Below, in pieces: positions 5,729-58,780 of a stretch of DNA of 64,000 bases (positions are counted from its first letter, which is position 1; every line of letters starts with the position of its first letter). Below the pieces are notes generated by a model. It had not been told where the DNA came from and ran no database searches. It was given only the letters and a program-made list of their open reading frames with translations. Origin of the DNA: Ectobacillus funiculus (GTDB taxonomy: Bacteria > Bacillota > Bacilli > Bacillales > Bacillaceae_G); NCBI RefSeq assembly GCF_004138295.1, contig NZ_SCFM01000001.1, forward strand, positions 1-64,000, read 5' to 3'. The translations under genes were made by a program, and so were the position numbers.

Positions 5729-5743
5729 TTTGCACTTTAAGAA
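5729..5743 (+). repeat. Short fragment matching the 5' end of the interspersed repeat
   Basis: TTTGCACTTTAAGAA equals the first bases of the repeat family (compare 52883 and the reversed copy at 41492-41602). It sits exactly at the point where the DUF3231 homology begins, so it may mark the deletion junction. Confidence 0.45.
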
Positions 5744-13843: not shown

Positions 13844-13873
13844 CCGCTTTAAGAAAGGATAAATTTCCAGCTT
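13844..13873 (+). repeat. Fragment of the interspersed repeat, 5' module
   Basis: GCTTTAAGAAAGGATAAATT and the following TCCAGCTT match the opening of the repeat (for example 22577-22608) with one or two changes. The rest of the element is missing. It lies in the short gap before the sugar-binding protein gene. Confidence 0.6.
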
Positions 13874-14938: not shown

Positions 14939-14940
14939 GT

Positions 14941-15060
14941 AAGATAAGAAAGTATAACTTTTCGGGGTGCTGTCTAGCTCCCAAGGCCAAAAATGGCAGA
15001 CTCCGAGCTGAATCTCCGCAAAAGGAAAAAAGTTCCTTTTACTCCGACACACCCCTACAC
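14941..15060. other. Intergenic DNA with a Bacillus-type TGTCTAGCTCC segment
   Basis: This 120-base stretch carries AAGAAAGTATAAC, like the start of the interspersed repeat, then GTGCTGTCTAGCTCC, a string I associate with intergenic repeats in several Bacillus/Geobacillus genomes. GGAAAAAAGTTCC is a short palindrome. No coding frame is convincing. It may be a third, degenerate repeat class; this is a guess. Confidence 0.35.
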
Positions 15061-17324: not shown

Positions 17325-17340
17325 GCTCTCTCTTATTGTT

Positions 17341-17373
17341 AAAAAAGTCGCTTGTTAACAAACGACTTTTTTA
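17341..17373 (+). terminator. Bidirectional terminator
   Basis: AAAAAAGTCG/CGACTTTTTT stem after the small membrane protein gene. Confidence 0.85.
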
Positions 17374-17384
17374 TTTGGTGTATT

Positions 17385-17458
17385 TTAACAATAGTGTGTA
17401 TATGTAACTAAGTCTCTGTCTTCGCCTAACGGCTCGCTAATCGGCGAGTTTTTTTATT
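17385..17458 (+). repeat. Interspersed repeat, 3' module only
   Basis: AGTGTGTATATGTAACTAAG then TCTCTGTCTTCGCCTAACGG match the second half of the repeat. It ends in CTCGCTAATCGGCGAG and a T run. The 5' hairpin module is missing. Confidence 0.75.
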
Positions 17459-22576: not shown

Positions 22577-22720
22577 TTGCACTGTAAGAAAGTATAAATT
22601 TCCAGCTAGGCGCGAATTCGACGTAGTCGAAAATTTTAGGAATACGAATACAGTGTAAGGGCAACTACGCCTCTGTCTTCGCCCAAGGGCAGGGCTCACC
22701 AATCGGCGAGTTTTCTTTAT
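22577..22720 (+). repeat. Interspersed hairpin repeat, full-length reference copy
   Basis: The most complete copy. The 5' module has CACTGTA...TACAGTG outer arms and TAAATTTCC...GAAAATTTTA inner arms. A spacer with CGCCTCTGTCTTCGCCCAAG follows, and then the 3' module CTCACCAATCGGCGAG plus TTTTCTTTAT. It is intergenic, about 290 bases before the GGDEF-EAL gene and 400 after the divergent RNase J start. It carries no open frame. Confidence 0.9.
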
Positions 22721-35908: not shown

Positions 35909-36733
35909 ATGAAGAAGTTTTTAATATTTGTCTTAGTTGTAACGAGCTGCATAGCTTTAGGAGTTGCTGGTTGGTTTTATTATCCTAAATATCAAATTTA
36001 CAAGATGAAGAATGCCTCGGCTCCTTCTGTTGAAGCAGAAAAACGCAGCGTTTCGTATATAGATTATGTTCGTCAGCTTAATAAACCCGAATTGAAGCAT
36101 CTTGCGTTAGGGGATTCAATTATCCGCGGGATTGGGGCTGGTGAAAATGAAAGCTTTGTCGATCGTTTTTCAGCCATGCTAGAGCAACAAACGAACAAGC
36201 CTGTTGTATTGCAAAATGAAGGTGTTGCGGGAATGACAAGTTCTGAGCTAAATGCTCTTTTACAAACTGGGAAATTAGATGAGAGTATCCAAAAAGCGGA
36301 TATTATTACAATCAATATCGGAGGTAATGATATTATCCACTCTGTAAAAAACAGAAATTATCTTCAAGCGATTCAGTCATTTGATGGGCTGCAAGCTGCC
36401 TTTGTTGATAATCTTGCCCAAATCACAACAAAAGTGAATGAGCTTAATCCAAAGGCAATAGTTGTGTTGCTTGAATTATATAATCCTTTAGAGCCGGGGA
36501 GCGAATTGTATTCCTTGGCTGATCAGTTGCTGCCAAAGTGGAATGTGAAATTATATGAGGCAGCCAGCCGATTTAGCTCGTCCATTGTGATTGAGACAAC
36601 GAAAGTTATTAATGGGAAACATCTTCAATATCTTTCTGAAGATGGGGTGCATCCGAATGCTTTAGGATATGATGCAATTTCAAAGCAGATGCTGCAACAG
36701 TTTCAAAATCAATCAGTTGGAAAACCAGTATAA
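35909..36733 (+). CDS. SGNH/GDSL-family lipase or esterase (YpmR-like)
   Basis: A 274-residue exported hydrolase resembling B. subtilis YpmR. An N-terminal membrane anchor (about 4-24) precedes the catalytic domain. Block I ALGDSIIRGIG (Ser near 70), block III INIGGNDI (about 132-139) and block V DGVHPNALGYD (Asp and His near 247-251) give the catalytic set. It probably acts on lipids or cell-wall esters outside the membrane. ATG after AAGGAGG. Terminator downstream. Confidence 0.85.
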   Translation: MKKFLIFVLVVTSCIALGVAGWFYYPKYQIYKMKNASAPSVEAEKRSVSYIDYVRQLNKPELKHLALGDSIIRGIGAGENESFVDRFSAMLEQQTNKPVVLQNEGVAGMTSSELNALLQTGKLDESIQKADIITINIGGNDIIHSVKNRNYLQAIQSFDGLQAAFVDNLAQITTKVNELNPKAIVVLLELYNPLEPGSELYSLADQLLPKWNVKLYEAASRFSSSIVIETTKVINGKHLQYLSEDGVHPNALGYDAISKQMLQQFQNQSVGKPV

Positions 36734-36764
36734 AAAGTCGCTGTGAAGTAACAGCGACTTTTTA
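36731..36764 (+). terminator. Terminator of the SGNH hydrolase gene
   Basis: AAAAAGTCGCTGT/ACAGCGACTTTTT overlapping the stop codon region. Confidence 0.9.
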
Positions 36765-36765
36765 T

Positions 36766-36885
36766 CTACTTTAAGAAAGTATAAATTTCGAGCTGGAAGA
36801 CTATTCGATATAGCAAGAAATTTTAGGAATCCACTATAAGGGCCTCTACGCCTTTGTCTCCGCTCAAGAGCAAGGCTTGCCAAGT
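36766..36885 (+). repeat. Interspersed hairpin repeat, 3' end truncated
   Basis: CTACTTTAAGAAAGTATAAA opens it, with GAAATTTTAGGAAT in the middle and TTTGTCTCCGCTCAAGAGC later. It stops at CTTGCCAAG, before the terminal stem is complete. It lies between two convergent genes. Confidence 0.8.
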
Positions 36886-41491: not shown

Positions 41492-41602
41492 CATAAAGAA
41501 AACTTGCCGATTGGTGAGCCCTACTTATACTTTGTTCCTAAAATTTCTCACTACGTCAAATGATCTTCCCGCTAGAAATTTATACTTTCTTAAAGTGCAA
41601 AG
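41492..41602 (-). repeat. Interspersed hairpin repeat, inverted copy with internal deletion
   Basis: Read on the minus strand it begins TTGCACTTTAAGAAAGTATA, keeps AAATTTCTAG...GAGAAATTTTAGGA and ACAAAGTATAAG, then jumps to GGGCTCACCAATCGGCAAG and TTTTCTTTA. It lacks the CTCTGTCTTCGCCC spacer. It sits between convergent genes. Confidence 0.85.
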
Positions 41603-41603
41603 T

Positions 41604-41649
41604 AAAAAAAGCTAATCATCTATATAATAGACGATTAGCTTTTTTTTTC
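41604..41649. terminator. Bidirectional terminator between CPBP and LtaS-family genes
   Basis: AAAAAAAGCTAATCATCTAT can pair with its complement ending GATTAGCTTTTTTTTT. A and T runs flank both sides. Confidence 0.85.
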
Positions 41650-43613: not shown

Positions 43614-43923
43614 AATTCACCTCTGCTAATCTAATTTCATGGTAGTAAGCTTGTAGTTTTTTAGTTTGTAAAAACAAAATTACGCTTTGGATTCGAACAG
43701 ACAACTAAAGGTCACAAAACACATTATAATATTATTGAAGCAGGTCTTCAACTTTCTCTTAACATTTCCTTAATAATTTACAATGAAAAAATGGTTTTAT
43801 ATGGATTGTAGAGTAACTGGATTATGTCATCTTTATAAAAGAAGAAAAAGATAGATTAGAAAGGAGTATACGGTGGTAAACCTTAACTAGTCGCGGGAAA
43901 CTACTAGAAAACTAGCAGGTTTC

Positions 43924-44048
43924 TTTACACTTGCAAGAAAAAGATATTTCCAACCAGAAGCGAATTTGACATAATGGTAATTTTTAATAATTAAGTAGAG
44001 GTGCAACTGCACCTGCACCTCTGTCCTCGCCTAACGGCTCGCCGATCT
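43924..44048 (+). repeat. Interspersed hairpin repeat, degenerate copy
   Basis: TTTACACTTGCAAGAAAAAG, CGAATTTGACATAATGG and CTCTGTCCTCGCCTAACGGC are recognisable; the closing stem stops after CTCGCCGATC. Highly diverged. The surrounding gap (43614-44227) holds no gene. Confidence 0.65.
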
Positions 44049-44227
44049 ATCAGTAATCAATGCGACCAAATTAAGAATTTCATTGTAACCCGTTTAGGGA
44101 GAAGATAACTTAAGTTTGAGAATTATTCTTCATTTTCCGTGACCTTGATGCAACCCGTGTAAAAGACAAAAAGTGCCTTTTGCATGGGTGTTCTCCCATG
44201 GGGCAGAGTGGACTAGGTCTGCTTTTT

Positions 44228-44334
44228 TACACTATAGAAAAGTATCAGTTTCCAGCTAGAAGTTATTTGACGTAGTCGGAAACTTTAGGGATACAGTGTA
44301 AGTGCAACTATGCCCAATCAGTGGGTTTTCTTTA
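44228..44334 (+). repeat. Interspersed hairpin repeat with internal deletion
   Basis: TACACTATAGAAAAGTATCA opens it. Inner arms AGTTTCC and GGAAACT covary against other copies. ATACAGTGTAAGTGCAACTA follows, then CCCAATCAGTGGG and TTTTCTTTA. Its last bases supply the stop codon of the minus-strand gene ending at 44332. Confidence 0.85.
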
Positions 44335-45503: not shown

Positions 45504-45582
45504 TTTATCATTTTCCGACAGAAGACCCCCACTTCAAGCACGTGACGTGAGCATTAGCGAGTAGGTGGGGGTAGTTCAATTC
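45504..45582 (+). repeat. Palindromic repeat, left copy
   Basis: Starts TTTATCATTTTCCGACAGAA, then ACCCCCAC...GTGGGGGT (8-bp perfect arms) and ends TAGTTCAATTC. Nearly identical to 49501-49581 in the same orientation. The arm sequence is reminiscent of end hairpins of IS200/IS605-type elements. Confidence 0.85.
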
Positions 45583-49500: not shown

Positions 49501-49581
49501 TTTATCATTTTCCGACAGAAGACCCCCACTTCAAGCACGTGATGGGTGAGCATTAGCGAGTAGGTGGAGGTAGTTCAATTC
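49501..49581 (+). repeat. Palindromic repeat, right copy
   Basis: Matches 45504-45582 over its whole length. Differences: GATGGG in place of GAC near the middle and GTGGAGGT for GTGGGGGT, which costs one base pair of the stem. No gene lies in 49428-49794. Confidence 0.85.
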
Positions 49582-51825: not shown

Positions 51826-51961
51826 TTTCGCTGTAGGAAAGTATAAATTTCCAGCCAAAAGTGGATTCGACGTATCTGGAGATTTTAGGAGTGAAGTATG
51901 GGTGCAACTAAGCCTCTGTCTTTGCCCAAGGACAAGGCTTGCCAATCGGTGAGTCTTCTTT
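51826..51961 (+). repeat. Interspersed hairpin repeat, near full length
   Basis: CGCTGTAGGAAAGTATAAAT opens it, inner arms AAATTTCC/GGAGATTT pair through one G-T, and GCCTCTGTCTTTGCCCAAGG leads to CTTGCCAATCGGTGAG, where the terminal stem survives through two wobble pairs. It lies 330 bases before tnrA. TGTCACAAAATTGTCACA follows it at about 51970. Confidence 0.9.
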
Positions 51962-52288
51962 CATTTATACATTTGTCACAAAATTGTCACAGATGAAGGT
52001 CTCATTTCGACATACAGATAGATTCGGCTTGTCCTATACTTATCCATGTTGAGCATTGTATGAGAAGGCATTATGCATGGAGGATGGGGTGAAGAATAGT
52101 ATTATTCATTTTCTATTTCTAAGCCACACCATGGTCTCAGAATTACAATATGCTCTTTAGAAATAAACGGTAAGGGAAGCTCTAATTGGACGAGTCTACT
52201 AGCTCTGCCTGAGGAAAAAGATAGCTCCAGGCAGTGAATTTTAATATTGTTTTACAAAAATATCTTGATGTAAGGGGAGTGGGCAGTT

Positions 52289-52573: not shown

Positions 52574-52882
52574 TGTATGAACGGTAAGATGACAAATTCG
52601 ATATTTCATGAAGGCTTCTTAATGATTTAGTTTTAGGTACGTGTAAGTTGTCCAATGAACCTGCTTTTAATAGTTATCCTTAGATGCTTACGAGTATTAT
52701 TTTCTCCACAACGGCTAGGATGGGGCCAATATGTGTCAAAAAATAGGCCAGAACCATACCTTCCTTCAACCAGAGGGGGTTCCTCCTAGGAAGGGGACAT
52801 AAGGGAAGGGATGGATTGCCATCTCTTATCTGGAGGGAAGCAGCGCGGTATTATTGAAGCATAAAAAGGCCGCAAAGCTTTT
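52574..52882. other. Gap after tnrA
   Basis: No gene seen. An imperfect stem CCTTCCT...AGGAAGG (about 52768-52797) contains an inner GAGGGGG/CCTCCT pairing. Nothing else was recognised. Confidence 0.35.
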
Positions 52883-53014
52883 TTGCACTTTAAGAACGGA
52901 TCAACTTCCGGCTAGGGGCGAATTCGACGTAGCGGGAAACTTTAGGAACAAGGTGTAAGTGCAACTACGCTTCTGTCTTCGCCTAACGGCTTGCCAATCA
53001 GCGCATTTTCTTTA
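52883..53014 (+). repeat. Interspersed hairpin repeat, near full length
   Basis: TTGCACTTTAAGAACGGATC opens it, with outer arms CACTTT and AAGGTG still pairing. The CGAATTCGACGTAG core is kept, and TCTGTCTTCGCCTAACGGC leads to a decayed terminal stem (GCCAATCAGCGC) and TTTTCTTTA. It precedes a convergent minus-strand gene. Confidence 0.9.
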
Positions 53015-58610: not shown

Positions 58611-58622
58611 GAATTCGCTAGC

Positions 58623-58664
58623 AGCCCTCACTTCAAGCGTGTCAGCTTGGAAGTGAGGGCTTTT
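58623..58664 (+). terminator. Terminator of galKET
   Basis: AGCCCTCACTTCAAGC pairs almost fully with GCTTGGAAGTGAGGGCT, then TTTT. Confidence 0.92.
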
Positions 58665-58666
58665 AG

Positions 58667-58780
58667 TTGCGCTGTAAGAAACTGTAAATTTATAGCTAGA
58701 TGCCAATTCGACGTAGACGGGAATTTTAGGAATACAGTATAAGTAGGGCTCCGCCTCTGTCTTCGCCCAAGAGCGGGGCA
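58667..58780 (+). repeat. Interspersed hairpin repeat, 3' end truncated
   Basis: GCGCTGTAAGAAACTGTAAA, CCAATTCGACGTAGACGGG and TACAGTATAAGTAGGGCT are followed by CGCCTCTGTCTTCGCCCAAG. The element stops at GAGCGGGGC without the terminal stem, directly behind the gal terminator. The gap from 58781 to the next gene has no other feature I can name. Confidence 0.88.

Follow-up and report, generated by a model that had tools for sequence, protein, structure and literature searches.

PATEs, which are non-autonomous members of the IS200/IS605 group, and REP sequences have subterminal hairpins, make no target duplication and insert 3' of a short motif. Another small repeat, bcr1, is reportedly specific to the B. 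cereus group, if one goes by the title of Okstad's 2004 report. A passage of PMC6542083 likewise gives bcr1 repeats as restricted to that group, and the description of bcr1 used here also draws on passages of the bcr literature on B. anthracis (PMC2267715). By description only, bcr1 is the nearest in kind to the repeat analysed below.

The window, that is, the whole stretch of 64,000 nucleotides under analysis, was the subject of an earlier note, made from the letters alone, which listed ten copies of an intergenic repeat and two short fragments. All ten copies are recovered by nhmmer with profiles built from genomic copies; their left ends were refined after the profile search (Table 1). The hairpin arms that the note quoted are present in the sequence: ACTGT/ACAGT at 22580, AGTTTCC/GGAAACT at 44230, and both ACTTT/AAAGT and AAATTTCT/AGAAATTT at 41494-41597. 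The fragments near 5729 and 13844 stand in part: 5'-end pieces are visible in the sequence at both places but are absent from the profile matches, and the piece at 5733-5743 is too short for certainty. Four properties went unseen in that first reading: the left boundary lies behind terminator-like structures, the right end is similar to them, units form head-to-tail arrays, and the family is widely spread. We regard the repeats as one family of mobile DNA in Bacillaceae and relatives, made up of small elements that are non-coding and non-autonomous, and name them terminator-following repeats.

Table 1. Copies of the repeat in the window, their parts, and adjoining features (dG, folding energy of the hairpin).
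Feature	Positions	Strand	Remarks
Focal full copy	22580..22719	+	140 bp: 134-bp unit plus 6-bp GAATAC duplication
5' hairpin module of focal copy	22580..22654	+	outer arms ACTGT/ACAGT; inner arms AAATTTCC/GAAAATTT, one mismatch; helices 1 and 2
Conserved core of focal copy	22655..22683	+	consensus ATAAGTGCAACTACGCCTCTGTCTTCGCC, here GTAAGGGCAACTACGCCTCTGTCTTCGCC; common to several genera
3' end of focal copy	22695..22719	+	hairpin CTCACCAATCGGCGAG (one mismatch), then TTTTCTTTA; right boundary; helix 5; appears terminator-like
3' fragment at contig edge	1..43	+
Possible 5'-end fragment behind T-tract	5733..5743	+	by eye
5'-end fragment	13845..13871	+	also a member of repeat family D6 in the window
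Partial copy	17382..17453	+	model 54-130
Terminator-like hairpin just upstream of 17382 partial copy	17340..17373	+	dG -11.7
Copy, 3' truncated	36766..36883	+
Terminator-like hairpin and T-tract adjoining 36766 copy	36730..36765	+	dG -20.5
Shortened copy	41494..41597	-	ends in TTTTCTTTA
Terminator-like hairpin upstream of left end at 41597	41604..41646	-	dG -22.0
Diverged copy	43928..44047	+
Hairpin adjoining 43928 copy	43896..43924	+	dG -8.1
Shortened copy	44230..44334	+	ends in TTTTCTTTA
Hairpin adjoining 44230 copy	44202..44223	+	dG -7.8; then T-tract ending TTTTTTA
Full copy	51829..51962	+	no strong hairpin upstream (dG -4.0)
Full copy	52886..53014	+	129 bp
Imperfect hairpin upstream of 52886 copy	52837..52881	+	dG -10.4; then TTTTTTG
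Copy, 3' truncated	58670..58779	+
Terminator-like hairpin adjoining 58670 copy	58618..58666	+	dG -30.0
Second repeat type, behind terminator-like hairpin	14940..15041	+	shared 5' motif AAGAAAGTATAA, other body GTCTAGCTCC, 3' hairpin then TTTTA; window family D9

Two other features of the window are recorded here. Two near-identical pieces of about 80 bp, both starting TTTATC, lie 4 kb apart at 45504-45582 and 49501-49581; they resemble the ends of what is presumably an IS200/IS605-type element. A run of short repeats at 1226-1375 lies inside the minus-strand open frame 980-1702, where it reads as an acidic repeat stretch.

Read from the left, a unit stands behind T-rich host DNA and consists of CAC, a 5' hairpin that opens with purine-rich sequence (AAGAAAGTATAAA), then the core ATAAGTGCAACTACGCCTCTGTCTTCGCC, a second hairpin (CTCGCCAATCGGCGAG) and the end TTTTCTTTA. 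The left-end letters are generally CAC, with GGC in Neobacillus and GTTAAT in Scopulibacillus. The letters of the 5' hairpin differ between genera: among 32 loci inspected by eye, it mostly ends just before ATAAGTG, and it was not seen in L281, L300 and L305.

The non-coding, structured nature of the repeats, which the earlier note had proposed, is borne out, and its claim that paired arms change together holds for the amount of change though not for its distribution over pairs. When a hand-written structure is laid over 53 sequences, 87.0% of the cells pair, versus 82.9 in shuffles; 46 cells carry a double change, versus 14.2 (sd 3.1); and the covariation score is 0.152, versus 0.086: for each of the three values, none of 500 shuffles is as high, bearing in mind that the shuffles leave relatedness in and that the structure, drawn from the tested sequences, is favoured over slid versions. 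The pairs that change on both sides number nine, however, which is not unusual, as 44 of the 500 shuffles reach that value. The double changes lie mainly in helix 2 (25 cells), helix 5 (11) and helix 1 (9), and the loop-to-core helix 3 has none in the 53 sequences: both end hairpins show paired changes. RNAalifold returns only six pairs on the 53-sequence alignment; for the set A1, whose 30 sequences are near-identical, it returns 36, and one of these has a double change. The fold may act as RNA or as single-stranded DNA.

Some units are longer. The Cytobacillus loci L259, L294, L299, L302, L306, L307 and L314, together with L244, hold an extra two-hairpin module, or part of one, between the 5' hairpin and the core. 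The reverse complement of the module of L259 gives a sub-threshold match to the Rfam family Bacillaceae-1 RNA (22.6 bits for a gathering threshold of 35, E 0.015), with both loop sequences kept. Bacillaceae-1 RNA is said to lie near rRNA operons, a position that would fit insertion behind their terminators.

The host genome (5,446,075 bases in 146 contigs) contains at least 150 matches to the covariance model, with E between 6.4e-40 and 2.5e-32, well beyond what chance would give. On its contig C82, 400 kb that were not chosen for copies, there are 52 matches at 50 independent loci, fragments included. Most full copies of this genome have a unit of 134 bp, and 69 blastn matches to the unit consensus have 81-98% identity. 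The repeat is confined to this genome among the four of the host genus in the collection. It is found in 13 of the 19 genomes of the host family, twelve of them among the 13 genomes of one other genus, which includes Gottfriedia. The order-wide sample has a blastn match to the core in 33 of 150 genomes and 24 of 83 genera, and a 21-base core pattern occurs in at least 77 stretches of named genomes; among the matches listed are Neobacillus, Cytobacillus, Gottfriedia, Scopulibacillus, Evansella, Virgibacillus, Salinibacillus, Metabacillus, Fredinandcohnia, unclassified Bacillus and a Bacillota MAG. Phage records gave no blastn match to the repeat, and IMG/VR no match to the exact core pattern. 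The core sequence strings searched for occur in no paper, shorter strings of 10-12 letters gave only unrelated titles among those listed, and searches by subject turned up no such repeat by title; this is no proof that the repeat is unpublished. One plasmid record, CP053689.1 (Arthrobacter citreus NEB 577), carries the repeat at the same coordinates as contig C2 of G016; since G016 belongs to the family of the window's host, the species name on that record looks wrong.

These hosts bear on a question raised in the earlier note, namely whether the repeats belong to the bcr1 type. The genus of the B. cereus group is far larger than four genomes: since the host genus has only four in the collection, and the host family of 19 includes Gottfriedia, a B. 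cereus group setting is unlikely, and simple bcr1 identity with a B. cereus group host was dropped on the size of the host genus. That the family is bcr1 or its direct relative is a reading that we consider quite improbable. The two have in common their size class, an intergenic position, structure, high copy number and, at the right end of many copies, TTTA followed by T; but a passage of PMC6542083 assigns bcr1 to the B. cereus group alone, while the present family is found in many other genera. Plasmid searches at E 0.01 and 10 also returned no B. cereus group record, a weak test as bcr1 is mostly chromosomal.

For the insertion site, we collected 136 independent non-tandem left flanks, from matches that reach the 5' end of the profile and have 200 bases or more before them; flanks whose last 40 bases were over 75% alike were left out, as were five that were another unit's end (141 to 136). 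A hairpin with dG of -8 or lower, ending 3-11 bases before the boundary, is present in 89 of them (about 65%): 28 of 47 in the host's own genome, 39 of 53 in the Gottfriedia group and 22 of 36 in other genera, in a non-random sample whose own-genome and Gottfriedia sites are largely best matches or stretches chosen around copies. A hairpin of this strength is found at 71 of 544 T-rich positions of the same loci (a control that included DNA outside intergenic regions), at 24 of 241 random positions, and at 12 of 136 positions 100 bases upstream. Compared with the T-rich controls, Fisher's test gives 5e-11 for the own genome, 2e-18 for the Gottfriedia group and 3e-7 for other genera.

The association is also sharply positioned. 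Of the 136 flanks, 79 have a terminator-like hairpin with T-tract that ends at the boundary itself; 10 have one at -8 and a single flank at -12, and at positions from -15 to -130 the count stays between 0 and 3. This profile is too sharp for mere survival of harmless insertions, and survivorship as the cause of the terminator link was rejected on this ground. The base at -3 is T in 126 of the 136 flanks and that at -2 in 122; the junction mostly reads TTTA, TTTG or TTTT followed by the C of the unit. The 47 sites without a strong hairpin include the focal copy at 22580 (dG -1.5), and at most sites that lack the terminator-like hairpin the boundary still falls in T-rich DNA: the chief requirement may be the T-tract. 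With lengths and gaps searched more widely, seven of the nine left ends in the window have a hairpin whose dG is at least as good as -7.8; one of these hairpins is imperfect and another lies at a partial copy, and the two left ends without are those of the focal copy and of 51829.

The right end of the element resembles its target, as both are a hairpin followed by a T-tract. CTTTA closes 224 of the 238 unique non-tandem right flanks, taken from matches required to reach the profile end, and the next base is T in 155 of them (69/118, 42/52 and 44/68). Between 22400 and 22900 of the window, the terminator scan calls none; the focal 3' end is terminator-like by its sequence.

Units lie head to tail in arrays of up to nine. 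Forty stretches and the window hold 19 runs of adjacent matches, eight of them with three to nine units, and some of the two-match runs are one copy split by a deletion. By a coarse rule, 206 matches, from a set in which 20 of the 40 stretches were chosen around copies, divide into 130 full, 42 without the 3' part, 17 without the 5' part and 17 short at both ends. Several of the 42 keep a remnant resembling TTTTCTTTA just downstream, and are thus internal deletions.

The mobility suggested in the earlier note is supported by precise empty sites in relatives. We surveyed 13 copies in 20 stretches of five Gottfriedia-group genomes. One copy of G010 is absent from G005, G006 and G008, whose flanks are contiguous, and the terminator hairpin is already there in the empty allele; one copy of G004 is precisely absent from G005, G006, G008 and G010. 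A copy of G005 is absent from G006 beside a further rearrangement, with a junction that is not clean; nine of the 13 copies are at sites common to two to five genomes, and one has no counterpart among the stretches compared. Neither of the two clean sites shows a target duplication: the right end belongs to the element itself, and the T-rich letters in common may be assigned to either side. A 20-kb piece of the window, compared with G001-G003, offered no usable flanks, the DNA being too diverged, and the stretch L162 of G016 gave no clean empty site, with other differences at both places. The label of MITE, which the earlier note had suggested, does not apply in the strict sense to a repeat without terminal inverted repeats and without target duplication.

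The same data make it very improbable that the repeat is a structured regulatory RNA, or a backup terminator, which selection maintains and ordinary recombination spreads. Such a reading would account for the paired changes and for one site that is common to five species; it is at odds with empty alleles in close relatives, with 50 loci in 400 kb and with the many decayed copies.

In G016, 37 of 38 C1 matches run with replication, versus 427 of 551 open reading frames (binomial p 0.0007, Fisher 0.0017), a bias that insertion into the lagging-strand template would be expected to produce. In the host genome the figures are 114 of 156 matches versus a gene baseline of 438 of 580 (p 0.46), so that replication-linked orientation was rejected as a general rule.

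Which enzyme could move such an element? The Y1 transposase was rejected as a present-day mover. A full-length intact Y1_Tnp gene is found in one (G014) of the 13 carriers of the window's family, the other 12 having remnants, broken genes or nothing, and G007 has four longer Y1 matches without stops, yet no element. Carriers of other genera all have a Y1 match (23 of 23). No element lies within about 4 kb (less at contig ends) of 20 Y1 loci, which are RAYT-like by size and score, so that RAYT linkage is 0 of 20. By eye, some of these Y1 genes are flanked by palindromes of their own. In L359, L364, L365 and L376 the palindromes beside RAYT-like Y1 genes are of the kind of GGGGTCAGACCCC, and are possibly the true REP partners of those genes. 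L114 (contig C46 of the host genome, near 141999) has a 3'-truncated element followed, some 0.2 kb downstream, by the decayed remnant of a Y1 transposase gene. An autonomous long version was rejected on the stretches inspected, which contain an ordinary gene (L155) or the extra hairpin modules of the Cytobacillus composites.

A second candidate is reverse transcription. Group IIC introns insert at intrinsic terminators, as a passage of PMC4424553 describes, and an RNA of the element, ending at its own terminator-like end, might be reverse transcribed behind terminators by borrowing the machinery or the target logic of these introns. The right end of the element does coincide with the expected end of a terminated RNA, the expandable hairpin modules of Cytobacillus are RNA-like, and inspection by eye of the same genomes shows introns, of whatever class, with a hairpin and T-tract just before their 5' end (L129, L130 and L139). 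We nevertheless judge this route unlikely. The search for RVT_1 found none in 10 of 36 carriers; these ten, mostly draft assemblies, are three of the 13 in the window's family (G009, G010 and G011) and seven of the 23 in other genera. G010, with its copy absent from three relatives, is among them, and a group II reverse transcriptase was rejected as a required mover. The two reverse transcriptase proteins of the host genome (open frames of 568 and 621 aa) need not be of class C. Matches without the 3' part outnumber those without the 5' part, 42 versus 17 of 206, the opposite of target-primed reverse transcription, even if several of the 42 are internal deletions. Finally, no catalytic intron RNA (domain V) appears: the window has no Rfam match at threshold, and the focal copy matches no intron family at E 10.

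Equally doubtful, in our opinion, is an integron-like route, in which a tyrosine or other recombinase would join circular units to terminator-like sites by site-specific recombination. It would explain why targets are not duplicated, why units are arrayed head to tail and why the right end looks like the target, and a mechanism of this type is proposed for bcr elements in a passage of PMC6542083; the targets, however, share a structure and a T-tract, and not a longer core sequence.

Precise joining, a structured target and a target-like right end all constrain the mechanism. The model that we prefer is a non-autonomous element inserted by hairpin-directed, single-strand joining, catalysed by a putative trans-acting enzyme; we give it, as a whole, a probability of roughly 0.6, with the RNA and recombinase routes still in contention. 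Its parts are unequally firm: it is highly probable that the element is mobile and targeted to terminators, while a single-strand DNA step, which we favour by analogy with the chemistry of the IS200/IS605 (HUH) type, is a tentative proposal with somewhat less than even odds. On a single DNA strand, at host terminators and at the element's right end alike, the enzyme would recognise a hairpin plus T-tract and cut 3' of ...TTTA, and it would join element to target at sites of the form TTTTTTA^T. AAGAAAG, the purine-rich 5' motif, may serve as a guide by pairing with the T-tract. Since the inserted DNA supplies a terminator-like end of its own, insertion would do almost no harm, and each copy would in turn offer a target to another.

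The preferred model thus offers a reason for both the intergenic position and the little harm done: a terminator would be added behind a terminator. With the target, the ends and the precise junctions now defined, a vague class of repeats becomes a testable system, in which a comparison of carriers and non-carriers can be used to look for the putative enzyme. The repeats also suggest that searches for structured RNAs may pick up mobile repeats beside operon ends.

The 5' motif and the kind of site are common to at least two repeat types, whose bodies are unlike. In six loci (L066, L023, L248, L307, L327 and L334) the second type adjoins, or nearly adjoins, the TTTCTTTA end of the first; apparent chimeras with the CACTGTAAGAAA start are seen in L332 and L334. 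As the body differs while the 5' motif and the kind of site are shared, the comparison suggests that the ends, rather than the body, would be what is recognised. One could go further and conjecture a distinct mobile class, in which an unrecognised Bacillales enzyme would place any body behind host terminators, provided that the body carries a 5' signal rich in purines (AAGAAAGTATAA) and a 3' end that is terminator-like. We think this extension possible but rather unlikely; if true, terminators would act as genome-wide docking sites.

How do terminator-following repeats compare with the systems already described? Like MITEs, they are short, non-coding and interspersed, with decayed copies, but their ends, CAC... 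and ...TTTTCTTTA, form no terminal inverted repeats, and they make no target duplication. With PATEs and REP sequences they share hairpins near both ends, insertion 3' of a short motif and, again, the absence of target duplication; they differ in that their target is a terminator-like structure, that the palindromes beside Y1 genes are other sequences (by eye), and that a full-length intact tnpA exists in only one of 13 carriers of the window's family. The likeness to group IIC introns lies in insertion behind intrinsic terminators (for the introns, according to a passage of PMC4424553), but the repeat has 134 bp, no protein and no tie to a reverse transcriptase. From bcr1 they are set apart by their hosts, since the named hosts among the matches listed belong to other genera and B. 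cereus group plasmids gave no blastn match. Set beside bcr1 as partial descriptions give it, the repeat is nevertheless alike in being short, structured, mostly intergenic, non-coding, of high copy number and MITE-like. The motif TTTAT, which bcr1 has at each end, is matched in part: at the right end the base after CTTTA is T in 155 of 238 flanks, and at the left junction TTTA, TTTG or TTTT mostly precedes C.
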